Position numbers and translations under genes: made by a program. The notes beneath the pieces are model-generated. The model had not been told where the DNA came from. It made no database searches and worked only from the letters and a program-made list of their open reading frames with translations. Source: a virus. From it: DNA of 21,975 nucleotides. Positions 1 through 21,451 of the stretch are shown here, in pieces. The stretch lies in IMG/VR virus record IMGVR_UViG_3300009124_000114, positions 1 to 21,975 of that record; one strand, given 5' to 3'. The number at the start of each line of letters is the position of its first letter. Positions within the stretch are counted from its first letter, which is position 1.

Positions 1-735
1 CCGGACCCGACGCCTTCGATGGCGATTGGTTCAGCTCTGCACACGCACGTACTCGAACTTGACCAGTGGGATGCGCGCTATGCAATTGCACCTGAAGGCA
101 TCGACCGGCGCACCAAGGCGGGGAGGGAAGAATGGCACGTCTTTACAACAGCAGCACAAGGTCGCACGGTGCTGAAGCGAGAAGAGGCTGAACAGGTAAT
201 GCACATGGGCCGATCTGTTCTTGGCCACCGCAGTGCCGCTGCGTTGCTTGCAGCTGATGGCCAGCCGGAAGACACATTTATGTGGACCGACGAAGCCACA
301 GGGTTGCAGTGCAAGTGCAGGCCGGATTACATGCACAGCGATGGCTCAACGATTGTTGACCTGAAGACAACAAAAAACGCCAGCCCGCGGGGTTTTCGGT
401 ATTCGGTGATTGACTACCGCTATTACGTCCAGGCGGCTTGGTATTTGCACGGCGTGGAGCAAGCGACCGGCAAACGGCCTGAGCGGTTCATCTTTGTGGC
501 GGTGGAATCCACGGCGCCGTATGCGTGCGCGGTGTATGAAGCCAGCGCTGAGATGATCGAAGCCGGCATGATCCAAGCGCGCGAAGATCTGGGCAAGCTT
601 GCGGCTTGCAAGGCTGCCGACCATTGGCCCAGCTATAGCGAAGAGGTGCAGACGATGACGCTGCCGCCTTGGATGCTGCCTGGTGCTGGCACTGGTGAGC
701 CTGTGACCTTTCCCGACAACATCGAGACATTTTGA
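1..735 (+). CDS. RecE-like (PDDEXK/DUF3799-type) exonuclease, 5' partial
   Basis: Probable exonuclease of the RecE/exodeoxyribonuclease VIII type, which resects dsDNA ends to make ssDNA for the annealing protein encoded next. The frame is open back to base 1, so the ATG at 19 is probably internal; the residues around it (PTPSMAIGSALHTHVLEL) look like the conserved N-terminal helix of this family, with an early His. Numbering from the ATG at 19, a PD-(D/E)XK core is visible: RPD at 101-103, VDLKTT at 113-118 (Asp114, Lys116 as metal and catalytic residues), then a YYVQAAWY helix at 135-142. The stop overlaps the RecT-like start (TGATG), so the two are translationally coupled, as expected for a two-component recombinase. 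The N-terminal part lies outside the window. Family assignment is strong, exact substrate inferred. Confidence 0.85.
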   Translation, partial: PDPTPSMAIGSALHTHVLELDQWDARYAIAPEGIDRRTKAGREEWHVFTTAAQGRTVLKREEAEQVMHMGRSVLGHRSAAALLAADGQPEDTFMWTDEATGLQCKCRPDYMHSDGSTIVDLKTTKNASPRGFRYSVIDYRYYVQAAWYLHGVEQATGKRPERFIFVAVESTAPYACAVYEASAEMIEAGMIQAREDLGKLAACKAADHWPSYSEEVQTMTLPPWMLPGAGTGEPVTFPDNIETF

Positions 736-1358
736 TGACTGACTCAGCACTGACAACCGCACGGCCCAGCTCGATCTATGCGGGCATGGAAGCATTTGAC
801 AATGCTCAACGCATCGCCAAGTCACTGGCTAGCAGCACGTTGGTTCCGCAGCAGTTCCAAGGGCAGCAGGGTTACGCCAACTGCTTAGTGGCGCTTGAGA
901 TTGCGGGCCGCATGAATTTGAGCCCGCTGCAGGTGATGCAAAACCTGCACATCATCCATGGCCGCCCAAGCTGGGGCAGCCAGTTCATCATTGCGTTGAT
1001 CAACGGTTGCGGCCGGTTTGAGCCGCTGCAATACCGCGTGACGGGCAAAGGCGACGACTTGGCCTGCCAGTGCGTGGCCAAAGAGATCAGCACCAGCGCT
1101 GACCTTGAAGGCCCAACGGTGACGATGGCGATGGCGAAAGCTGAAGGCTGGGCCACAAAATCGGGCAGCAAGTGGCGGACAATGCCAGATCTGATGATCC
1201 GTTACCGGGCCGCGGCCATGTGGGGCCGGCTTTATATCCCCGACCTTTTGGTAGGCATCAGCCACAGCCAAGAGGAAGTGATGGACATTGAGCCGATCAC
1301 CGTCGAGGATGCACCACAGCCGGAGTTCGCGCCGCAGCCTGCTGATGAAATCTTCTGA
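735..1358 (+). CDS. RecT-like single-strand annealing protein
   Basis: Likely phage annealing protein of the RecT/Red-beta type that coats and pairs complementary ssDNA produced by the exonuclease upstream. The 207-aa protein has the usual family course: an N-terminal helical part, a NLSPLQVMQNLHIIHGRPSW segment at about residues 57-76, a beta-rich middle, then GSKWRTMPDLMIRYRAAAMW (about 142-161), which matches the KW..MP..M.RYR motif known from RecT-family proteins, and a C-terminal EEVMD. I chose the ATG at 735, which overlaps the exonuclease stop, over the TTG at 732. The C-terminus is acidic and ends in DEIF. Family assignment rests on these motifs and the RecE-like neighbour; a RecT profile search would settle it. 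Confidence 0.8.
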   Translation: MTDSALTTARPSSIYAGMEAFDNAQRIAKSLASSTLVPQQFQGQQGYANCLVALEIAGRMNLSPLQVMQNLHIIHGRPSWGSQFIIALINGCGRFEPLQYRVTGKGDDLACQCVAKEISTSADLEGPTVTMAMAKAEGWATKSGSKWRTMPDLMIRYRAAAMWGRLYIPDLLVGISHSQEEVMDIEPITVEDAPQPEFAPQPADEIF

Positions 1359-7609: not shown

Positions 7610-9514
7610 TTAGGCGTGCTTCGTGATTTTAATTGTTGCAAATACGTTGTTCTCCCCAGAACCTGCATCTATGCCAAGGCCGTTAGTGTCGTTGCTTGCG
7701 GTGTAGTGCTGAAGTTCAAATGCTTTTGAGCTTGCGATGGTTGTTTTACCAAATCCTCCACCAACGCCATCACTGCGGTAAGCCAAGCCCAAGGCAGCTG
7801 TTGTGCTGTCAGTCACATTTCGGAATCTGCTTTGAGTACCATCAGAACGATAAATAGTTTCTTGCCACTCAATTGAATACGTTCCAGCACTTAACGTAAT
7901 TTGGTTTGAAGAAACGGACGCCCACGTCTGACTTACAGCTGTGGTGTTAATTGGGCGTGTATTCCACGTGCCCGTTGAAGTCGCTCCACCGTCTGTGCCG
8001 CTAGACGTTGTGTGTTGGAAGATTGCGTAGTCATCGTATAAACCACCGCCACCACCACTTGGTGTTTGCCAAGTAGGAGCACTCGCAGAGCCGTTTGAAG
8101 TTAGGACTTGTCCAGAGGTTCCGTAGTTTGCACCGCTAAGCCCAAATTGACCAGCTGGACCAATACGTAAGCGTTCAGTTCCATCATCTTTAATTATTAA
8201 ACTTCCACCTGCGCGAATATCAAATCCGTTTACACCATCAGAAATACGCAACTGGTCTGAAGTGCCATTCAAATGCAGAAGATTGCTAGGACCACTCGTC
8301 CCCAGACCCACGTTGCCCGAGGCATCGATGCGCAGTCTTTCACTGCCATTGGTATAAAAAACGCTTGGATACGCACCAACAGAAGTAAAGAACGAAGCAC
8401 CGCCATCGGAATACATCTGAGCGGTATGAGAACCGACTGATGATTGAATCGTTCCAGCAACATGGAGCTTGGCGGTTGGTGTTAAGCCAACACCGACGTT
8501 GCCTGATGAATCGATGCGGAATCTTTCAGTGCTACTGGTTGCTAGAGTTATAGCGCCGCCCGATGCTTCATTAACAATTTCAAAATTATTACCACTGCCA
8601 CCAAATCCGTAGTACGCAATACGAGTACCTGCACGACGCACGCCAACATAATTGGGACCGCTATCTGTTACGTCCATATTTAACGGATTATCGTTAGTCC
8701 CTCTAATCCTGATGGCGGCATTGGTATCACCAGTGTTCAGGTCAATCCCGACAGTTGGCGAGCTGGTCCCCACACCCAATCTGCCCTGACCGTCAATTCT
8801 GACTCTCTCAGAACCATTGGTCCTGAAGAACATGTTCTCAGTATTAAAGTCATACGCGACATAACCTCTTTGCGAACCAGAAGTGTTCCCAAATGCGTAA
8901 TAGGCAGTTTCAGTGTCAGCAGATGGCTCCAACCATGCTCTTGGATGTGAACCTTTTAGGTGCAGCAACTGCGCTGGAGATGATGTCCCCACACCCAACC
9001 TGCCCGATGAATCGATGCGGGCTCGCTCACTGCCGTTTACTTCAAACGCTAGGGAATCTCCACTGTTTCTATATTTGATTTGACCTGTTGTTGGTGATGC
9101 GGCATCACCTAAGAACAAGGTTGAAATTCCCGCATTGTCCGCACAAGTTAAATAGACGGAGCTATTGCCAGTCAGGGCATTGATTCTGGCGCCAGCGTCT
9201 GCTTTTTCAACATCTAAAAGATAGTTTGGCGTGCTCGTCCCCACGCCCAAGTTGCCCGAGCTGTCAATAAACAATCTTCCCGTTCCGCCTGTACTAAATG
9301 CCAGCGCATTTGTACCGCTGTTGTACACCCCTGTGTCAGGGTCACCGTCAAACGCAATGCCTGGCGCAGCTGCCGTTCCAGCCGCCACATTCTTTAATAG
9401 TTCTTCAATGCTGATCTTATTTGTGACGTCATCGCTTACATCAACGATTGGCAGCACATCGGTGCTGATCGGATCCGCAATGGTTGCTAGATCCGTAATC
9501 TTGATGTTGGCCAT
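7610..9514 (-). CDS. Repeat-built tail fibre with a C-terminal jelly-roll-like head
   Basis: A 634-aa trimeric-type tail fibre, likely used for host contact. The N-terminus (MANIKITDLATIADPISTDV) resembles short attachment domains of phage fibres. The shaft contains about six repeats of an ERxRIDSSGNLGVGTSSP unit at residues near 78, 161, 234, 328, 390 and 445, a common phage fibre element. A Gly hinge at about 485-491 precedes a C-terminal domain of about 140 residues rich in beta strands (ITLSAGTYSIEW...), C1q/TNF-like in pattern, which I infer is the receptor-binding tip. No S74-type chaperone motif is seen. It follows the adhesin gene at 9555 after a hairpin. Strong as a fibre, uncertain as to receptor. 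Confidence 0.85.
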   Translation of the reverse strand: MANIKITDLATIADPISTDVLPIVDVSDDVTNKISIEELLKNVAAGTAAAPGIAFDGDPDTGVYNSGTNALAFSTGGTGRLFIDSSGNLGVGTSTPNYLLDVEKADAGARINALTGNSSVYLTCADNAGISTLFLGDAASPTTGQIKYRNSGDSLAFEVNGSERARIDSSGRLGVGTSSPAQLLHLKGSHPRAWLEPSADTETAYYAFGNTSGSQRGYVAYDFNTENMFFRTNGSERVRIDGQGRLGVGTSSPTVGIDLNTGDTNAAIRIRGTNDNPLNMDVTDSGPNYVGVRRAGTRIAYYGFGGSGNNFEIVNEASGGAITLATSSTERFRIDSSGNVGVGLTPTAKLHVAGTIQSSVGSHTAQMYSDGGASFFTSVGAYPSVFYTNGSERLRIDASGNVGLGTSGPSNLLHLNGTSDQLRISDGVNGFDIRAGGSLIIKDDGTERLRIGPAGQFGLSGANYGTSGQVLTSNGSASAPTWQTPSGGGGGLYDDYAIFQHTTSSGTDGGATSTGTWNTRPINTTAVSQTWASVSSNQITLSAGTYSIEWQETIYRSDGTQSRFRNVTDSTTAALGLAYRSDGVGGGFGKTTIASSKAFELQHYTASNDTNGLGIDAGSGENNVFATIKITKHA

Positions 9515-9555: not shown

Positions 9556-10556
9556 CAAAGAGTAATCACCCAAACAGCACCGTCACCACCTGCGCCTGAG
9601 TCTGCAGATTCTGATGCGCCGCCACCGCCGCCAGGTTGTTGTCCAGCTCCTGCTGCTGTACCTCCACCCGTACCGTATCCACCATTGCCGCCAAAAACAC
9701 TTGCGCCGCCATTGCCGCCAACAGTACCCGATGCATCACAACTGCCGCCAGCGCCTCCGCCAAAAATTCCATTGCCGCCATCTGAATCAGTGCGACTTTC
9801 ACGGCTACTGCCACCATTGAAAATAGTCAGTGCGTCAAACCCAGCAAAGCCTGCTGACGTTTCCACAGTTCCCTGCGCCCAAGCAGTTGAACCGAAGCTG
9901 TAACTACCAGCGGCGTTGGTGCCATAGATGCCGCCATACCCAATAACGTGGGTGCCAAAGGAGCTGTTCCCACCGGAATTGCCGTTGCCGTTCACCGAAA
10001 CACTTGCCCCACCAGCGCCGACCGTGATGGTTTCGGTAGCACTTAGATCACTTAACTTCAAGATGCCAATTACGCCAGAAGCACCAGCACCGCCACCAGC
10101 GCCCAAACCGCCGCGTCCGCCAGATCCTCCGCCGCCCCAGCAGATAACGATTGCAGTTGTCCCGCCACTTGGTTTATTCCAAGTAAACGTCCCAGGGGTT
10201 AGGTATTTCGTAAACGTCGAAGCAGCGATCGTGCCCCATAACAGTGCAGCGCCGTCAGTCAGCAGTGCCTTCCCAGCGTTTCCGGTTTGACTAGGGAGCA
10301 AAGAATCTACATTGCCTTCGACTTGGAACTCTGCAGGATCAAGCGTTCCAACAGTGATCCAACCAGAATTAGATGCGTTTCTGATTTTCCAAAGTGGTGG
10401 GCTGCTGCTTGTGTCGATCCAAGGCTGAAATGCAACAGTCGTTGTAGGCGCAGAAGGTCCAGAACTTTGGCTATAAAGCGCAGCAAGATTGTCGTTAATA
10501 TCTCCGCGAACAGTCGGGAATGTTGCGTTTTGAACGACCTGATCGCTTTGGGCCAT
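9555..10556 (-). CDS. Polyglycine-rich tail adhesin
   Basis: A 333-aa protein. The N-terminal 130 residues form a mixed domain with a short attachment segment (DQVVQNATFPTVRGDINDNL) and WKIRNASNSGWITVG. From about residue 125 the protein is dominated by glycine (WGGGGSGGRGGLGAGGGAG and many GGNGG blocks to the end). This is the composition of glycine-rich phage proteins, including gp38-type tail adhesins whose polyglycine II bundles carry receptor-binding loops; the similarity is in composition, not proven fold. The C-terminus GAVWVITL is beta-like. It begins at the J stop (TAATG) and precedes the fibre. Likely a host-recognition or J-capping protein. Confidence 0.75.
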   Translation of the reverse strand: MAQSDQVVQNATFPTVRGDINDNLAALYSQSSGPSAPTTTVAFQPWIDTSSSPPLWKIRNASNSGWITVGTLDPAEFQVEGNVDSLLPSQTGNAGKALLTDGAALLWGTIAASTFTKYLTPGTFTWNKPSGGTTAIVICWGGGGSGGRGGLGAGGGAGASGVIGILKLSDLSATETITVGAGGASVSVNGNGNSGGNSSFGTHVIGYGGIYGTNAAGSYSFGSTAWAQGTVETSAGFAGFDALTIFNGGSSRESRTDSDGGNGIFGGGAGGSCDASGTVGGNGGASVFGGNGGYGTGGGTAAGAGQQPGGGGGASESADSGAGGDGAVWVITL

Positions 10557-13500
10557 TACAGTGCTCTACCGTATCCAGTCGCAGTGTAACTGAAACCGCT
10601 ATTTGTCGCTCCCGTAAGAGTTGCCGTGAATCCTGTCCCCGTGATGCCACTCAACGTCACGTAACCATTCGCACCAAGATCTGTTGGGGTGATGACAACC
10701 TCAGGAGCCTGGTAGAACGCATTGCTAAACGTCACCGCACTGCCGGACGAGCCAGTGCCAGTTTCTGTGCGCCGTCGTAGCTGCAGTGTTGCACCAAGCT
10801 GATCAGCAGCCACATTGATATTTGAGCTTGTCGTGGTTAGTTGAGCTTTGATCTGGATGCCACGACCTTGGATCACCCCCGCAACAAATTCAGTCCATGG
10901 TCCCCAGGTTGGGGATCCCGCCGGATCGTCATCCGTCGTTCGCACGTAAGTTACCGCGTTCACAGAGTCAGATGTCGTGCCATCAAATAAACCAGTTGCA
11001 TCGTCAAAAAATCCGGGATAATCGTCGAAGTCTGTTCCCGTTTGAACCGTGGGGCGACTAAGGATTACGCGGCGAATAATCGTGTCGTAGACCGCACCAA
11101 AGTCAAAAGTGTCTTTGTAGGTATATTCAGCCTGTCCGTCAACTTCAAAGTAAAGATCAACTGCATAACCTAACGCCACATAAATGTCAGGCTCTAGCAG
11201 CAGTGCGGTCTCAGTCGCATCGTATGCACAGTTAACAGCGGTTCCATCGAATGGCGGCGCCAAGCTTTGCTCCGCGTAAGTCTTGACCGTCAGCAGTGCG
11301 TCAGGATCAGGCAACGCGACTTCATATCCGACTGCATTGACGGAACGATTACCGAGGAAGTCTTCGGCTTTGACAAAGTACGTCCCGGCAAGCAACGGCA
11401 CCTGTTTTTGGGTGGACGCGCCAGAGACACCATCAACGATACGGTTACTGCTATTCCATTCAGCACTAGCTAACGGTCGTGGATCGTGGCGAATAATAAT
11501 GCGCCCGCCAAGTTGAACATCTAGTTCGTCAACCTGATCCCAAGACAGAATGGCCAGCGTGTCAGTTGTTGGCGTCAGACTTAAATCAACGATGTCAGCC
11601 GGTGGTGCGCCAAGACCTTGAACGGTGTAATCCGCCAATGCCGGTTTACTAAATAAAACACCACTGGCACTAATCGCACTGACTTGGATTTGATAGTTGC
11701 CTGGCTTGGCGTCAAGAATGTCTAGCGTCGTGCCTTGAATAACCTCTTCGGTAAAGTTGTCGTCTTCGTGGCGATAACGCACACGGAATTTTTTGGTTGT
11801 TTGGCCGCTTGGAACGCGCCAGTGCCAGGTGATCTTGATTGCAACTCTGCCATTCAATACAAATTGGACTTCTTTGGTTGGCTCCGTCCCACCTAAGGGG
11901 ATAAGCTCTAATACCTCAAGATCTTCTGGTGGCTCGGGGATGACATCTAAATTTGTTGCGTCACGCTGCTGAAGTTCTTCACCGTCTTCAACGTAAGCGT
12001 ATTTGCCCTCGTTGTATGAAACGGCGTTGATGGTGTAGAGCATCTGGTCTTGCTCTTCAATTGCAAGCACGCGCCATAGCGTTGGCTGGATGTTACTTGC
12101 TCCCAAGCCAAGGCTTTCAAGCATCCAAATACTGTTGACGTTCGGGGCGATGCTGAAAGACTCTTGGACTGTAATTACGCCTGAGACAATCGTGTCTACA
12201 AGTCGCGTTTCGGCTGTTCCGTCAGGCAAAATAACGTGCAATTTGCTTCCCGACCCAAAGCTCAAATCGGTGTTTGCGGTATCGTCAACTGTGATTGAAG
12301 TGGTTGTTGATGCGTTGATTCGACCTGCTTTACGCTCGCCAGCAATAACAGGATCAGCGATCTGAATCACCATACCGGGTCGAACAACCTGCCCTGCGGA
12401 AAGACTTGACGTGAAGGAAACGACTTCTTTCTCGTACCTTTCTGAATACAGAATCCATCTGCCAATTCTTGCGGCTTGGCCACGGCTTGTGCAGGCGAAG
12501 GCGTCAAACTCTTTGCGCACCACGCCATACTTTGCAATACCGTCTTGGTCTTCAACAACCTCATAAGCTTTGTCTTTAAGGTCAATGTCGAGGTAGCTAA
12601 CCACAACAACGGTGGGGCGAGTTTTTAGACTGCTGCCGCTATACGTAAAACCATCTTCTGTTATGTTGGCCATCGTGAATAGATAGGCCGGATCCCGTGG
12701 TGCGTCCTGTGCAATAGTTAGACTGCCTGCACTCCAAAAGCCTTGGCAGCGCATGACTGAAAGCAGGTCATTGACTAGCTTGAAGGACTCCTCAGCTGTT
12801 TGAATCGTGGTATTGCAGCTAAAACGTGCCTCCGTTCCACCGAAGCCATCATCAACAAGCTCGTTGCTATATTTCGACGCTGCAAAAAACGCCCACTTGT
12901 CTAGCTGGGAAACGTCAATGTGGTTGCCGAAGCCGTACCTAGTGCTGGTCAATAAATCCCATAAAATCCACGCTGGACAGGCGCACCATGTTGAAGCAGC
13001 AAATGTTCCGTCCCAGACAAAATTTTGCGGGTAAATAATTCTGCCAGTGTCAGAGTCAACGGTGACGCCATTGGGGATCTTGACTTTGACGCCCTTGATC
13101 AGGTACTTACGTGAGGGGATGCTATTGAATTGTTCGGCATCTACACGCAAGCCGATGAGAGCGCTGTTTGCATAGGTGAGCTTTGCCCACTTGATTTCGG
13201 TCATGCTTGACCAGCTGAAAGCGTCGGTCTTAAGAGGGTTTCCGCTGTCCTTCGTGATCCGTTCTACCTTTACGTCTACGTTGTCCGTAGGGTTTGGGCG
13301 CTCAAACTCAATTAGATAATCTTTTTGGTAAAGGTCGGCTGTACGGCCACTGATCTTGTCAGAAATAACCTCTACAAAGCCCCCGCTTGCGTACTGCACA
13401 AAAATCTTTAGTTCTACTGACGTGCCACTTGTGTCGCCCGTCTCATTATCAATTTTTTGTAGAGATGGAACTGAAAGCGTGATCCTTACCGCATCAACTT

Positions 13501-13864
13501 CATCGTCGGTGACACTCTCAACAATAGGGACGGATTGAGCAACAGGTCTACCAACCACACGCTCATTTTCCGTTCCAGGAGTTAAGGGAATATGCTTTTG
13601 ACTTTGCGTGCCGTTTCGCGTGTAGATAGTAACGTCTTCAAAATTAAAGTCTCCGTTTGCACTTTCCAGTTGGGTGTCATTAAGAAAGATCGATTTATTT
13701 CCGTCAACTAAACCTTCAATCTCGCCTTCTGAAATCAGGTCAATGACATTTGCGTATTGCCTTGAATCCAGAGAATCTGGCGCGGTTTTGGGAGCACGAC
13801 TGCTGCCGCCGCCGCTACCGCCTTTGCCGCCGCCGCCACCGCCGTAACCGATAATCTCCGTCAT
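10556..13864 (-). CDS. Tail-tip central protein, lambda J-like
   Basis: A 1102-aa tail-tip protein of the lambda gpJ type, which closes the tail tube and contacts the host. It opens with a Gly loop (GYGGGGGGKGGSGGG) followed by the J-type domain containing SLDSRQYANVIDLISEGEIE. Two fibronectin III-like domains can be seen at about 645-750 (PEPPEDLEVLELIP...) and 755-840. The last 60 residues have the pattern FSNAFYQAPEVVITPTDL ... YTATGYGR, a C-terminal beta-sandwich common in phage tail proteins. Length is close to lambda J (1132 aa). The start overlaps the I-like gene (ATGA) and the stop the adhesin start. Confidence 0.95.
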   Translation of the reverse strand: MTEIIGYGGGGGGKGGSGGGSSRAPKTAPDSLDSRQYANVIDLISEGEIEGLVDGNKSIFLNDTQLESANGDFNFEDVTIYTRNGTQSQKHIPLTPGTENERVVGRPVAQSVPIVESVTDDEVDAVRITLSVPSLQKIDNETGDTSGTSVELKIFVQYASGGFVEVISDKISGRTADLYQKDYLIEFERPNPTDNVDVKVERITKDSGNPLKTDAFSWSSMTEIKWAKLTYANSALIGLRVDAEQFNSIPSRKYLIKGVKVKIPNGVTVDSDTGRIIYPQNFVWDGTFAASTWCACPAWILWDLLTSTRYGFGNHIDVSQLDKWAFFAASKYSNELVDDGFGGTEARFSCNTTIQTAEESFKLVNDLLSVMRCQGFWSAGSLTIAQDAPRDPAYLFTMANITEDGFTYSGSSLKTRPTVVVVSYLDIDLKDKAYEVVEDQDGIAKYGVVRKEFDAFACTSRGQAARIGRWILYSERYEKEVVSFTSSLSAGQVVRPGMVIQIADPVIAGERKAGRINASTTTSITVDDTANTDLSFGSGSKLHVILPDGTAETRLVDTIVSGVITVQESFSIAPNVNSIWMLESLGLGASNIQPTLWRVLAIEEQDQMLYTINAVSYNEGKYAYVEDGEELQQRDATNLDVIPEPPEDLEVLELIPLGGTEPTKEVQFVLNGRVAIKITWHWRVPSGQTTKKFRVRYRHEDDNFTEEVIQGTTLDILDAKPGNYQIQVSAISASGVLFSKPALADYTVQGLGAPPADIVDLSLTPTTDTLAILSWDQVDELDVQLGGRIIIRHDPRPLASAEWNSSNRIVDGVSGASTQKQVPLLAGTYFVKAEDFLGNRSVNAVGYEVALPDPDALLTVKTYAEQSLAPPFDGTAVNCAYDATETALLLEPDIYVALGYAVDLYFEVDGQAEYTYKDTFDFGAVYDTIIRRVILSRPTVQTGTDFDDYPGFFDDATGLFDGTTSDSVNAVTYVRTTDDDPAGSPTWGPWTEFVAGVIQGRGIQIKAQLTTTSSNINVAADQLGATLQLRRRTETGTGSSGSAVTFSNAFYQAPEVVITPTDLGANGYVTLSGITGTGFTATLTGATNSGFSYTATGYGRAL

Positions 13865-14490
13865 GCTTTTACCTGAACGGTGTCGATGCCAGCAGAGATA
13901 ACGACACTGCCGGTCAGAGTTCTACCGTAAACGATAGGAACAGGCGTGCCACCACGGCTTGTATTTTGTACGCCTGAGAATGAATACGATCGAGATTTGC
14001 GTGGATCTTGTTCAGTATCTGGGCCTTGCGGAATTACAGGCACAGGAGAAATAGCTTGAGAAATGCCAGTCAACACAAGGCCTGCGCCGATGAAAAACAG
14101 CGCAGACGATCCCCAAGCAGCGCCACCAGCTCCAATACCCGTAACGCCAAATGCACCAGCAAATGCAGTGCCAGCGCCAAAACTTACAGCTGAAAGAGCA
14201 ATCAGTGCAGCGCCAGCAAGAATAGTCAGGCCAGCATTGCCACCAGCACCGACAACTACTGGAACGATTTTGATTTCTTCTCGCCCGACAGGAAAATGAA
14301 GCTCATCCAGCGTCAACGCACGTTCGCCAACCAGCACCTTGTAATGCTGATCGGCCATGTGTTCTTCCAATACAGGAAAATTTGCAATCAACATTCGCAC
14401 CACTTCTGCTGTGGTGCTTAAATCTGCCTCCAATGCAGTTCGACCAACGAACTTGGCGAGCTGCCCGTAAAGCCTGACCTTACGCAACAT
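13861..14490 (-). CDS. Tail assembly protein, lambda I-like
   Basis: A 209-aa protein of the lambda gpI type, needed to assemble the tail tip. The N-terminal ~80 residues have a ubiquitin-like beta-grasp pattern ([16 protein letters not shown] ... [12 protein letters not shown]). The middle is a Gly/Ala-rich hydrophobic block ([20 protein letters not shown], then [20 protein letters not shown]), and the tail ends with the [20 protein letters not shown] segment typical of these proteins. Start 14490 is taken over an upstream reading from 14529, which would overlap the K-like gene more. It overlaps the K-like gene by 11 bases and J by 4. Confidence 0.9.
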
Positions 14491-15181
14491 GACGCAGCCG
14501 CCTCCCTGTAACCGATTGTAGCCAGCCACCGTAAATATCTCTACTGCTTAGGCGTCCTGCAAGGTGATGTAGCACCATTCCATCACCGATAAATACGGCG
14601 CAGTGATTCAAGCCTTTGCCGTTAATCTGCATCAGCAACAGGTCGCCACGCTCCAGTGGTTCGTTTTCAGCCAGTTGGCGGAATCCTGTTGCAGCCCAAG
14701 CGCCATCAAACATAGGCGCATTCATGAACAGTTCTGGTGTTGCAGGACGATCCCAATCACGCAGCATGATTCCTTCTTCTGCATACCAGTCACGCGCCAA
14801 AGTCCAGCAGTCGTTGACGGCCCAAGTCCATTGTCTGCCGATTAAAGGGGCCTTGTAGCCGCAGGGGCAGTATTCGCCCCAGCGCTCAATTCGCGGGTTG
14901 ACGATGTACCAAGGCAGACCGTGTTTTTCTGCTGAAACTCGATCGGCTTCGCTGGCAACTGGTGCGGTATGCGGGTGGCTGTGAACAATGCCGATGATCT
15001 CGCCAGCATCTGATGCAGCAGCGTAATCCTCAGGATTCAGCACAAACATATCTTCCCTACTGTGCGCCATATTGCGGCATGGCCAATACCGCTCACGACC
15101 TTTGATGACAACGACCAAACCAACTGACTCCCAAGGATCGCGGTCTTTAGCGTCTTGTAATGCAGCGTCGCGCCAAGTCAT
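14480..15181 (-). CDS. Tail-tip protein with JAMM and NlpC/P60 domains, lambda K-like
   Basis: A 233-aa fusion of two peptidase domains, as in lambda gpK. The first ~100 residues are a JAMM (Mov34/MPN) domain: Glu18, then HSHP with His67 and His69 followed by seven residues and SEAD (Ser77, Asp80), matching HxH(x7)SxxD. The second is an NlpC/P60 domain: Cys125 in [10 protein letters not shown], His193 in [11 protein letters not shown], and a further His near 205. NlpC/P60 may cut peptidoglycan at entry and JAMM process a tail-tip partner, by family knowledge. Start and stop overlap the neighbours by 4 and 11 bases. Confidence 0.93.
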
Positions 15182-18750: not shown

Positions 18751-19409
18751 CTAGTTGTTCAACACTTGCAAAGCAGCAGCTTCGATGACTTGAATTTTCT
18801 CAAGCGTCGAACGCTGGTCATCTATCTCATACAGTTTAAGCACCCATGCAACTGCTGCATAGTCCAAACCTATCAACCCACCCATTGAAACCCGCCATTG
18901 AGTTTGGCACTGCAAGAAAACCTGAAGAGCCTGCCAGTTCTCTTCCCATACCTCAAACTGCGCAGCTTTTGCCGCTTTACGCATAGCGTTGATCTCGCCA
19001 GGGTCCATGCCCTGAGCCATCAAGTCTTCGTAGTTTTCTTCAAATTTGCCGCCCGCTTCGCACCAATGCCGGGCGGCATCTTTTAGTTTTTTGCCGGCGC
19101 TCCCTGAAAGCTGTCGGCGTAGGCATTGATCAATCCTTTCAAAACGAAAGGGTCATCAAACAACTGCGCTTTTGTCGTGTCGTCAAATGGCAAATCCTCG
19201 CCGTCCTCGTCTTTAATGCCAGTCCAGCCGACGACAATGGCATCCACCAAAGCGTCTTCGCCTTCAGCTATTAAGCTGTTGAACTCAGACCTGCTAATTC
19301 GCTTAAAAACTGCCGTAAAGGTCTCTTTCTTGAACTTGCCACCATCGACGGGGATTTCAACGGCAACAGGCCACTTATAAGAAGAGACCTTTTTAAGGAC
19401 AAATGACAT
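18751..19409 (-). CDS. Frameshifted tail assembly chaperone GT fusion (G plus DUF1799-like T)
   Basis: The long form of the tail assembly chaperone, made by a -1 ribosomal slip at 19092-19086. It would be 219 residues: 108 from the G frame, 21 new residues beginning LKDAARHWCEAGG, then the 90-aa open frame starting at 19023. The distal part is DUF1799-like (QFEVWEENWQALQVFLQCQT, then QWRVSMGGLIGLDYAAV). In lambda, gpGT binds the tape measure through its T part. There is no in-frame stop between the heptamer and 18751. A separate start at TTG 19023 or ATG 19020 is possible but has no visible Shine-Dalgarno. Strong inference from sequence and synteny. Confidence 0.88.
19047..19092 (-). promoter_or_regulatory. 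Programmed -1 frameshift signal
   Basis: On the minus strand the heptamer A AAA AAC (19092-19086) sits in the zero frame just before the TAA stop of the G-like gene. A 7-base spacer follows, then a perfect 9-bp GC-rich inverted repeat, TGCCGCCCG with CGGGCGGCA (arms 19070-19078 and 19047-19055), loop 14 bases. Heptamer type, spacer length and hairpin match known bacterial -1 frameshift sites. Confidence 0.9.
19083..19409 (-). CDS. Tail assembly chaperone, lambda G-like
   Basis: A 108-aa protein, the short form of the tail assembly chaperone that helps polymerise the tail tube around the tape measure. It is beta-rich at the start (VAVEIPVDGGKFKKETFTAV), then acidic and helical (FNSLIAEGEDALVDAIVVGW) and ends GAPAKN at the frameshift heptamer. 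Position directly after the major tail protein and before the tape measure is that of lambda G. No clear Shine-Dalgarno precedes ATG 19409. It would be made in excess over the fusion. Confidence 0.88.
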   Translation of the reverse strand: MSFVLKKVSSYKWPVAVEIPVDGGKFKKETFTAVFKRISRSEFNSLIAEGEDALVDAIVVGWTGIKDEDGEDLPFDDTTKAQLFDDPFVLKGLINAYADSFQGAPAKN

Positions 19410-19414
19410 GCAGA

Positions 19415-20359
19415 TCAGGTGTAAACAAGTGTGATTTCGTCATTGCCGGAATCACTTGGCACCATAGTAGTCGGAAGGTTCAACATCACAATCCCCTGAT
19501 CCTCAGAGTAAGTCGGGTTACCTAGCGACAATCCGGTCGCGGGCGAACTCAGCGTGATGATGTTGCCAGCTGATGTGCCGTGAACAATGCTGAGGTTGCC
19601 TAAGGTGCCAGCCACCGCCAAGGCGAAAAAGTCAGCCGTGGCGATCGTTGGGCATTCAATTACAAAGTTGGCAGTCGCTGCACGGTTAGTGATCAATACC
19701 TCCTTCTCAGAGTTGACCAGCTCGCGGTAAACCACCTCGTTGCCAAGGTCAAGCTCTACTGACTGAAGTGCCAAGCCAGTTTCGGAGTACATCTCAAACG
19801 ATGTTGTGTTGGTGTCGTTAAAGATTTGTGGAATGGCTTGATTTTGAAAGGTTAGGGTTGGTGATGCTGTATCAGTCGGGGTGTTGTACTGCCCCGTGAA
19901 CGTGAAGTTGTAAACAGGAATTTGGTTAGCGTTCAAGCTGACAGTAAAAGACCCGCGCGCACCAGTCACGATGTGGCGAATGCCATCATTGTCGATGTAC
20001 ATCGTTACAGAATCAAACGAGGTCGAAACCGGCGCGTAGGTGACAGAGGTCGATGCGACAACGGTTTCACTGAAGCCGCAAGCCTTTAGAAGAGGACCGT
20101 ACTGGGGCGCGGTCCCTGCAGTGCCAGAACCTGAATACTCAACCGTGAACGTAACGGTGACGCGGGTGTTTGCGATCAGCTGAGGGCTATTGCCCAAATA
20201 ACTGCGAATAAGGTCGCGGGAAAGAACCTCAGACTCTGCAGGGCTGATCTCAAGCGCAGAGACTTGGATCGCGTTATCAGCTCCAGTCGGCGTCGGGTCA
20301 GTGCCGTAAGTAACTTCTTCTTTCGCAAGGATTGACCTCACGCGGGCGAGCTTTGCCAT
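19415..20359 (-). CDS. Major tail (tube) protein, lambda V-like
   Basis: A 314-aa major tail tube protein. The N-terminal part has features of siphovirus tube proteins (AKEEVTYGTDPTPTGADNAI, then VTVTFTVEYSGSG and PQYGPLLKACGFSETV), followed by beta strands throughout. The C-terminal region from about 235 (ADFFALAVAGTLGNLSIVHG) continues the beta-rich pattern and may be a small extra domain. GGAG lies 9 bases upstream of the start, and it follows the largest gap in the tail operon (67 bases), in keeping with high expression. It precedes the chaperone gene by 5 bases. Confidence 0.9.
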   Translation of the reverse strand: MAKLARVRSILAKEEVTYGTDPTPTGADNAIQVSALEISPAESEVLSRDLIRSYLGNSPQLIANTRVTVTFTVEYSGSGTAGTAPQYGPLLKACGFSETVVASTSVTYAPVSTSFDSVTMYIDNDGIRHIVTGARGSFTVSLNANQIPVYNFTFTGQYNTPTDTASPTLTFQNQAIPQIFNDTNTTSFEMYSETGLALQSVELDLGNEVVYRELVNSEKEVLITNRAATANFVIECPTIATADFFALAVAGTLGNLSIVHGTSAGNIITLSSPATGLSLGNPTYSEDQGIVMLNLPTTMVPSDSGNDEITLVYT

Positions 20360-20426: not shown

Positions 20427-20846
20427 TTATGCGCTGGTGAGGTCCACTCGGCTGGTGCGATATTTAACCAGATAGTCCATGGCAATAATTCCGACAGGGA
20501 CATCAGCATCAAAAAAACTGAAGTCTGTTGTTGCAGGATCAATATCTAAGGCGTAACCATTGATGGTGGTGTCAGACATCACTGCATCATGCACTTGCTT
20601 CACGTAAGCGTCAGCGGCGTTGCCTGGTGCATTCGCGCGAACCAAAACAGTAACGCGAACGCGAAAAGTCCATTGGAGCGTGCTTGAAAATTCCTCAATT
20701 GGCTCGTCACTGATTGGCTCGACAATTACAGCAGGAACCTCACCTCGCGCCAATGGCTCCACCCGGTTGCGATAAACGGTTGCCCCGGTGATAGCGTCAA
20801 GATTAGTTTTAAGCCGAGCAAGGATAAGCTCACGCCTTGTCGTCAT
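20427..20846 (-). CDS. Tail terminator protein, lambda U-like
   Basis: A 139-aa protein of the tail terminator type, which caps the tail tube at the head-proximal end. It starts with a helix (RRELILARLKTNLDAI), followed by a GATVYRNRVEPLARGEVPAV loop typical of this family, then strands (TFRVRVTVLVRANA) and a helix (ADAYVKQVHDAVMS). The place immediately before the major tail gene agrees with lambda U. It overlaps the preceding fibre-like gene by 4 bases (ATGA). Confidence 0.85.
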   Translation of the reverse strand: MTTRRELILARLKTNLDAITGATVYRNRVEPLARGEVPAVIVEPISDEPIEEFSSTLQWTFRVRVTVLVRANAPGNAADAYVKQVHDAVMSDTTINGYALDIDPATTDFSFFDADVPVGIIAMDYLVKYRTSRVDLTSA

Positions 20847-21451
20847 GCCTTCACCTCAATGGCACTGATTCGCCCGCGTTGGAATTGAATGGTGGTCGTG
20901 TCGCTGATATTGGTTACATACAGCGCCACCTCGTCACCATCAGCTAGCTCAACCATCCAAAAGCAAAACAGCTTGGCAATCTGCCCAGTTGATCCCGAAA
21001 ATGCGCGACATTCAGACTGGTCAATGCCAACGCCATTTTTTGCCAGCTTAATTCCAAGCGTGTGGTTGTTGCCGGCGTAAGCATCCATGCTGGCCTGCAC
21101 TTGGAACAGCTTTGTTGCGCCGCTGTCGTTCTTAATTGCAAAGGTGTCAGACGTGCCCAGCGCGGTCTGATAATCAGTGCTGCTATCAAAAGTCGCAGTC
21201 AGACCAGTGCTTTGATACGTGCCGGCCGCGCCAATGGTGATAGTCCCACTGGTTGTTTTGCTGGCCTGGCCACGGGCCAAAACGCCTTCGATGTAATAGC
21301 TCAAACTGCTCCATGCAGTAGAGCCGTCGCCCACTTTGTAGCGGCGGGTATCGGTCTCGATGCCCATCTCGCCAGCGAGCAAGACGGGATCCTCTGAAGT
21401 CCAATTTGCTTCAGTGTCGCGACGCAACCTAATCCGTGCCGTGCTGCTCAT
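20843..21451 (-). CDS. Structural protein with hyaluronate-lyase-type N-terminus and C1q-like domain
   Basis: A 202-aa protein. The first ~50 residues (RIRLRRDTEANWTSEDPVLL, then GEMGIETDTRRYKVGDGSTA) match the short N-terminal domain known from phage hyaluronate lyases and major tropism determinant-like fibres. The remaining ~140 residues form a beta-rich domain (FAIKNDSGATKLFQVQASMD, ALYVTNISDTTTIQFQ), jelly-roll/C1q-like in pattern. It lies between the connector and the terminator, where lambda has Z, with 4-base overlaps on both sides. It may be a head-tail neck decoration, a short collar fibre or an adhesin. Confidence 0.7.
   Translation of the reverse strand: MSSTARIRLRRDTEANWTSEDPVLLAGEMGIETDTRRYKVGDGSTAWSSLSYYIEGVLARGQASKTTSGTITIGAAGTYQSTGLTATFDSSTDYQTALGTSDTFAIKNDSGATKLFQVQASMDAYAGNNHTLGIKLAKNGVGIDQSECRAFSGSTGQIAKLFCFWMVELADGDEVALYVTNISDTTTIQFQRGRISAIEVKA

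Follow-up and report, generated by a model that had tools for sequence, protein, structure and literature searches.

The question raised by this locus is how a reading frame that is open for 21 codons ahead of its first start-like codons comes to be translated. The locus lies in IMG/VR virus record IMGVR_UViG_3300009124_000114, positions 1-21,975, and this whole stretch of 21,975 nt is referred to here as the window. We consider the junction, as judged from its sequence and that of its homologues, to be almost certainly a programmed -1 ribosomal frameshift signal that yields two tail assembly chaperones from one message. The features on which this reading is built are the following.

19415-20359, minus strand: tail tube protein, directly upstream (PF18906 Phage_tube_2, E 1.1e-18)
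19083-19409, minus strand: G-like tail assembly chaperone, zero frame, 108 aa, ATG start, C-terminus ...PAKN followed by the stop
19100-19105, minus strand: SD-like AGGGAG, 7 nt 5' of the heptamer
19086-19092, minus strand: slippery heptamer A_AAA_AAC, in phase, abutting the stop
19083-19085, minus strand: zero-frame stop TAA, adjoining the heptamer; next A-site codon after AAC
19079-19085, minus strand: spacer TAAAAGA, the heptamer-to-stem interval, 7 nt with the stop included
19047-19078, minus strand: hairpin, putative stimulator, perfect 9-bp GC stem with a 14-nt loop
18751-19086, minus strand: T-like extension in the -1 frame, DUF1799, 111 aa; G and T together give a predicted fusion of 219 aa
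16834-18741, minus strand: tape measure protein, 635 aa, directly downstream (phrog_8462, E 6.5e-43)

On the minus strand, the G-like ORF (19409-19083) ends in GCA AAA AAC TAA, and the stem is formed by the arms TGCCGCCCG and CGGGCGGCA, positions 19078-19070 pairing with 19055-19047; from the heptamer through the end of the stem the signal takes up 46 nt. The post-slip -1 frame reads LKDAARHWCEAGGKFEENYED and ends at TAG 18753-18751, and its first start-like codons, TTG 19023 and ATG 19020, come after 21 codons. A previous sequence-only reading of this DNA had claimed the position and phase of the heptamer, the adjoining TAA, the 7-nt spacer, the perfect 9-bp GC stem, the 46-nt total, the 21 open codons in the -1 frame and the 219-aa fusion; when the coordinates were re-derived, every one of these values was recovered (108 + 111 = 219 aa). 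By itself, AAAAAAC is nothing out of the ordinary for the window, where it occurs eight times against 5.4 expected. The combination of XXXYYYZ (Y being A or T), a stop and a 9-bp perfect stem 4-9 nt downstream, searched on both strands, is present once in the window and in none of 60 dinucleotide shuffles.

The genes around the junction follow the order tube, G, T and tape measure, and then minor tail, L-type, NlpC/P60 and J-type genes. The G-like protein matches phrog_569 (E 1.4e-19) and has a weak match to phrog_313, 'Tail assembly chaperone' (E 1.9e-4); it has no match in Pfam, the lambda G family included. Its AlphaFold model (pLDDT 82) resembles in Foldseek a predicted structure from Klebsiella phage Solomon, its 'Tape measure chaperone' (E 1.8e-4, TMq 0.60), and also the predicted tape measure chaperones of Serratia phages, and a fold search of the model against the PDB gave nothing significant. 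The weak phrog_313 match and the similarity to predicted structures point to G being a tail assembly chaperone. The T part belongs to DUF1799 (PF08809; E 6.6e-20, 71.6 bits against a gathering cut-off of 26). Matches of T to ribosomal protein L20 in a PDB profile search were weak, and we take them to be due to chance.

Several other genes of the window deserve mention in their own right. In its C-terminal part, the tape measure protein is similar to its counterpart in the RcGTA gene transfer agent (NF058675, E 3.9e-36, below the family cut-off). Between a head-closure-like gene and the tail terminator, positions 20843-21451 (minus strand) encode a fibre-like protein whose N-terminal domain is that of Mtd (PF18454) and which matches phrog_24754 along its entire length (E 4e-105); Synechococcus phage S-CBS1 gp10, a 'fibre protein', is equal in length and holds the equivalent place. 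JAB-like and NlpC/P60 domains are joined in one ORF at 14480-15181 (minus strand), a tail-assembly K-like fusion, and the gene after it, at 13861-14529, has a weak ubiquitin/MoaD-like match. The 634-aa protein encoded at 7610-9514 (minus strand), with no Pfam match, has partial matches in phages of Synechococcus, Prochlorococcus, Pelagibacter and roseobacters. A recombination module lies on the opposite strand at positions 1-1358 (plus strand), where a DUF3799 nuclease of PDDEXK type is accompanied by a weak RecT-like match. The tail tip protein, J-like and 1102 aa long (10556-13864, minus strand), is closest to those of the Prochlorococcus siphophages MED4-184/P-HS2 and MED4-117, at about 33% identity, and for this reason the phage is probably aquatic and possibly has a picocyanobacterial host. 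Rfam and tRNA scans of the window found nothing.

Is the heptamer kept as such in related phages? Homologous loci were collected by scanning IMG/VR with peptide patterns from outside the junction (77 and 80 loci), and together with cultured phages these loci gave 105 distinct junctions. The junction is conserved at the nucleotide level: the heptamer is AAAAAAC in 103 cases and GGGAAAC in two, and a stop stands directly after it in all 105 (TAG in 59, TGA in 29 and TAA in 17). In 103/103 of the AAAAAAC cases the codon ahead of AAA ends in A, whichever of Ala, Arg, Glu, Val or Ser it specifies; the same residues elsewhere in G have a third-base A in 5-44% of their codons, and lysine in these genes is written AAG 473 times versus AAA 266 times. 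The base ahead of AAA is always A, or G in the GGG cases. With AAC followed by a stop, the leucine codon of the -1 frame is CTA or CTG, never CTC or CTT.

The change from AAAAAAC to GGGAAAC alters three bases and would retain the tandem re-pairing in the -1 frame, an outcome that neither protein conservation nor an A run predicts. It also bears on transcriptional slippage, in which RNA polymerase on the A run, and not the ribosome, would shift the frame. A runs can be slippery for RNA polymerase and an A6 run is present at the site, but six As are all that the run contains, which is short for polymerase slippage; GGGAAAC, found in the two homologues of the main set and in several further phages, keeps the re-pairing of the tandem tRNAs and not the A run; and a stem 5-8 nt downstream, together with an upstream SD-like element, are stimulators of ribosomes. 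We regard a shift made by the polymerase as highly improbable, and programmed ribosomal frameshifting is the reading that we continue to follow.

The -1 frame is coding upstream of any start. Over T codons 2-21, dN/dS is 0.20 in this frame, and the two remaining frames give 1.16 and 2.14; these ratios are descriptive only, the sequence pairs being non-independent. Stops are present in 0/71 sequences. Down to 21% identity, the T residues L1 and A4 show no or almost no variation. These observations are difficult to reconcile with an alternative in which T is an ordinary gene apart from G and has its own start (TTG 19023 or ATG 19020), its translation being coupled to termination at TAA, 60 nt further upstream, and the heptamer being incidental. 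In favour of this alternative, many of the window clade's relatives have a start-like codon at T codon 20-22, and T is annotated as a separate short ORF in most databases; however, the 20 codons ahead of the proposed start evolve as protein in the -1 frame, and the invariant heptamer is left unexplained. The place of the ATG is not conserved either, the first ATG of T being at codon 21 in 42 of the 105 junctions and elsewhere or absent in the remainder, and ATG 19020 pairs with the anti-SD at only -1.0 kcal/mol. A start codon in the -1 frame upstream of the junction exists in just 4 of the 105. Because 20 codons upstream of any usual start evolve as protein and no start is conserved, T appears to be entered through G. 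Expression of T solely from its own start, which the sequence-only reading had named as evidence that would overturn it, is thus contradicted by the protein-like evolution of these codons, and we consider an independent T gene scarcely credible. Under ribosomal frameshifting, by contrast, the heptamer and the start-less coding stretch would have one common explanation.

The third part of the anatomy is the hairpin. The 63-nt RNA folds at -20.9 kcal/mol (z -3.3 relative to dinucleotide shuffles), and a hairpin is predicted in 60/60 non-redundant homologues, its outer pair lying 3-10 nt, mostly 5-8 nt, past the heptamer. No homologue lacking both heptamer and stem, a find by which the earlier reading could have been refuted, came to light among the 105 junctions and the 60 folded homologues. 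The peptide AA...GG favours complementarity of GCC with GGC, so part of the stem is owed to the protein; since the peptide itself biases toward a stem, we used a synonymous-codon shuffle, which corrects for this. The z of the stem in this test is -3.17 in the window and averages -2.08 over the 60 homologues, 63% of which fall individually below 5%, and four control windows further downstream give z between -0.33 and +0.22. RNAalifold recovers a stem in the region, with covariation that is thin (one compensated pair), and the register of the stem in the window clade is offset by one codon. Folding with pseudoknots included had also been proposed: the best pairing between the loop and downstream sequence has 6 bp, G-U included, and as 64% of shuffles reach the same, it does not rise above chance. 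On the plus strand, a terminator-like site at 19066-19079 was considered and rejected, being the frameshift stem and the A run seen on the opposite strand; two such sites are present versus 2.0 expected.

A component that the sequence-only reading did not contain is the SD-like AGGGAG at 19105-19100, with which the predicted signal becomes three-part and dnaX-like in layout. The duplex of AGGGAG with the anti-SD has -7.4 kcal/mol. At this site the Gly codon is GGA or GGG in 52 of the 54 non-redundant homologues that have Gly there, versus 44/376 elsewhere in G (Fisher P about 1e-37, uncorrected for shared ancestry), and the best match to the anti-SD is found at a fixed spacing in 47/60 homologues. 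The synonymous-shuffle z for anti-SD pairing over the whole stretch is modest, with a mean of -1.0 and controls of -0.37 to +0.48. SD-like elements 5' of the site stimulate -1 frameshifting in dnaX and in many IS elements (PMC5009743).

In the mechanism that we propose, most ribosomes would read ...AAA AAC and then the stop, releasing the 108-aa G-like protein. A minority would move back by one base on A_AAA_AAC, helped by the SD-like AGGGAG behind and the 9-bp hairpin ahead, and would then read CTA and continue in the DUF1799 frame to give the 219-aa GT-like fusion. Slippage in the cell and the resulting ratio of the two products are what we infer from this arrangement. By analogy with lambda, G would coat the tape measure and the DUF1799 part would recruit tail tube subunits.

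At which step would the ribosome slip? The stop is the next A-site codon, so slippage in the P and E sites could compete with a release factor; the sequence agrees equally well with a simultaneous slip in the P and A sites that precedes the reading of the stop and would involve no such competition. A refinement that does not exclude the above is that the adjoining stop is regulatory: the P/E-site slip would take place with the stop in the A site, and release factor and stop context would set the G:GT ratio. The adjacency is fixed in 105/105 junctions and in nearly all distant relatives, and as heptamer and stop lie on average 26 nt apart in the frameshift genes of SEA-PHAGES (PMC10885494), zero distance makes a recognisable sub-style. 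With bacterial ribosomes on an HIV heptamer followed by a stop, extra RF2 is reported to have abolished -1 slippage (PMC4373837), and this precedent, together with the anatomy, suggests a competition between slippage and termination. The same paper, however, has a stop at that place lowering slippage and not raising it; the adjacency could merely keep G short and avoid dual-coding sequence; and all three stops occur, in varied contexts (TAGA in 59, TGAT in 14, TGAC in 12, TAAA in 9 and TAAT in 5 of the 105), a variety of identity and context that gives no clear sign of tuning. We consider a regulatory stop possible but less likely than not. We speculate, as a rather unlikely extension, that slippage with the stop waiting in the A site, and a chaperone ratio governed by release-factor competition, would make this junction a -1 counterpart of the 'shifty stop' of prfB. 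Programmed -1 frameshifting itself is common to both orders of events.

The junction extends well beyond the window clade. Each of the 14 cultured-phage records first examined (Synechococcus S-CBS1, S-LBS1 and S-CBS3, and phages of Rhodobacter/Rhodovulum, Vibrio, Pseudomonas, Thiobacimonas, Pelagibaca and Cronobacter) has A_AAA_AAC or G_GGA_AAC and then a stop at once. The same junction is present in most of 18 further phages and prophages, which comprise Drexlerviridae, Dhillonvirus and Serratia loci and prophages or prophage-like contigs of Burkholderiales, Rhodobacteraceae, Oceanospirillum, Noviherbaspirillum and Acidovorax. The Klebsiella phages Smiley, K34PH164 and KLB22 and Escherichia phage Jk06 have no classical heptamer and other A-rich strings touching TAA (AAA GTT, AAG AGT, AAG GGT and AAG GTC, respectively, KLB22 having AAAGGGT); these may possibly be A_AAR tetramers or slip sites of another kind, equally far from the stop. 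In a Gallionella contig one sense codon stands between heptamer and stop. Searched as nucleotides, the junction had no match in the phage collection, the sequences being too diverged; protein searches did match. In S-LBS1 the G-like gene carries the label ABC transporter ATPase, and the annotation of many GenBank phages gives the DUF1799 frame as a short separate ORF from an internal start, at a loss of about 20 residues.

With more than 100 distinct natural variants, the junction offers a clean comparative case of a compact -1 signal in bacterial viruses. The putative SD-like stimulator is invisible in genome annotations, and many phage records show T truncated or detached from G. Should the adjacency of the stop be functional, these phages would also provide a natural test of bacterial -1 slippage after translocation, with the stop in the A site.

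One of the closest known systems is lambda G/GT. As in lambda, the two frames lie between the tail tube and tape measure genes, the -1 shift falls near the end of G, and a GT fusion is made, here as a prediction; unlike lambda, the locus has an A_AAA_AAC site, a stop right behind the heptamer, a DUF1799 T part and a G without a match to the lambda G family in Pfam. The lambda slippery site is GGGAAAG. In gene position, in the in-phase and conserved heptamer and in an overlapping -1 T frame that lacks a conserved start, the locus conforms, by its sequence, to the lambda G/GT type. Frameshifted G/GT chaperones have been known since 1993 (Levin) and were found to be widespread in 2004 (Xu, Hendrix and Duda), the -1 frameshift being conserved among tail genes of dsDNA phages, as cited in PMC5009743. 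AAAAAAC or GGGAAAC is used in Caulobacter phages (PMC3556154), and frameshifting of 6-7% has been measured in an HK97-like chaperone cluster (PMC3711429). A heptamer touching the stop was already reported for gp12/gp13 of Acinetobacter phage vB_AbaS_Loki (PMC5313236); in its account of these genes that report gives the motif alone, without stem, SD-like element or selection test, and the likeness is one of the motif as described there. In the open-access library searched, we found no paper that links the DUF1799 family to stop adjacency or to an SD-like element.

Homologous DUF1799 T parts are present in Citrobacter phage Supreme284 and Escherichia phage NBD2 (T1/TLS-like Drexlerviridae, with chaperone and TfmS), where A_AAA_AAC touches TAA, and in Klebsiella phage Smiley, where the gene is annotated as a joined frameshift CDS, 'TfmS'. 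These Drexlerviridae-type relatives differ from the window in that identity over the matched T part is about 30-38% and in that Smiley and Jk06 have other slippery strings.

The SD-like letters of E. coli dnaX are AGGGAG. The dnaX signal and the present one share an upstream SD-like element, an A_AAA_AAN heptamer and a 3' hairpin in the same order (PMC5009743). They differ in the product, which would be lengthened here and is shortened in dnaX, and in the last base of the heptamer, which is C here and not G; in E. coli, A_AAA_AAC slips weakly by comparison with A_AAA_AAG (PMC5009743), and E. coli may not be the host here. Having the SD-like element and not A_AAA_AAG, the locus would work like dnaX and not be a member of the dnaX type. 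The signal is ordinary in kind and unusually well conserved, and it has one added component, the SD-like element.
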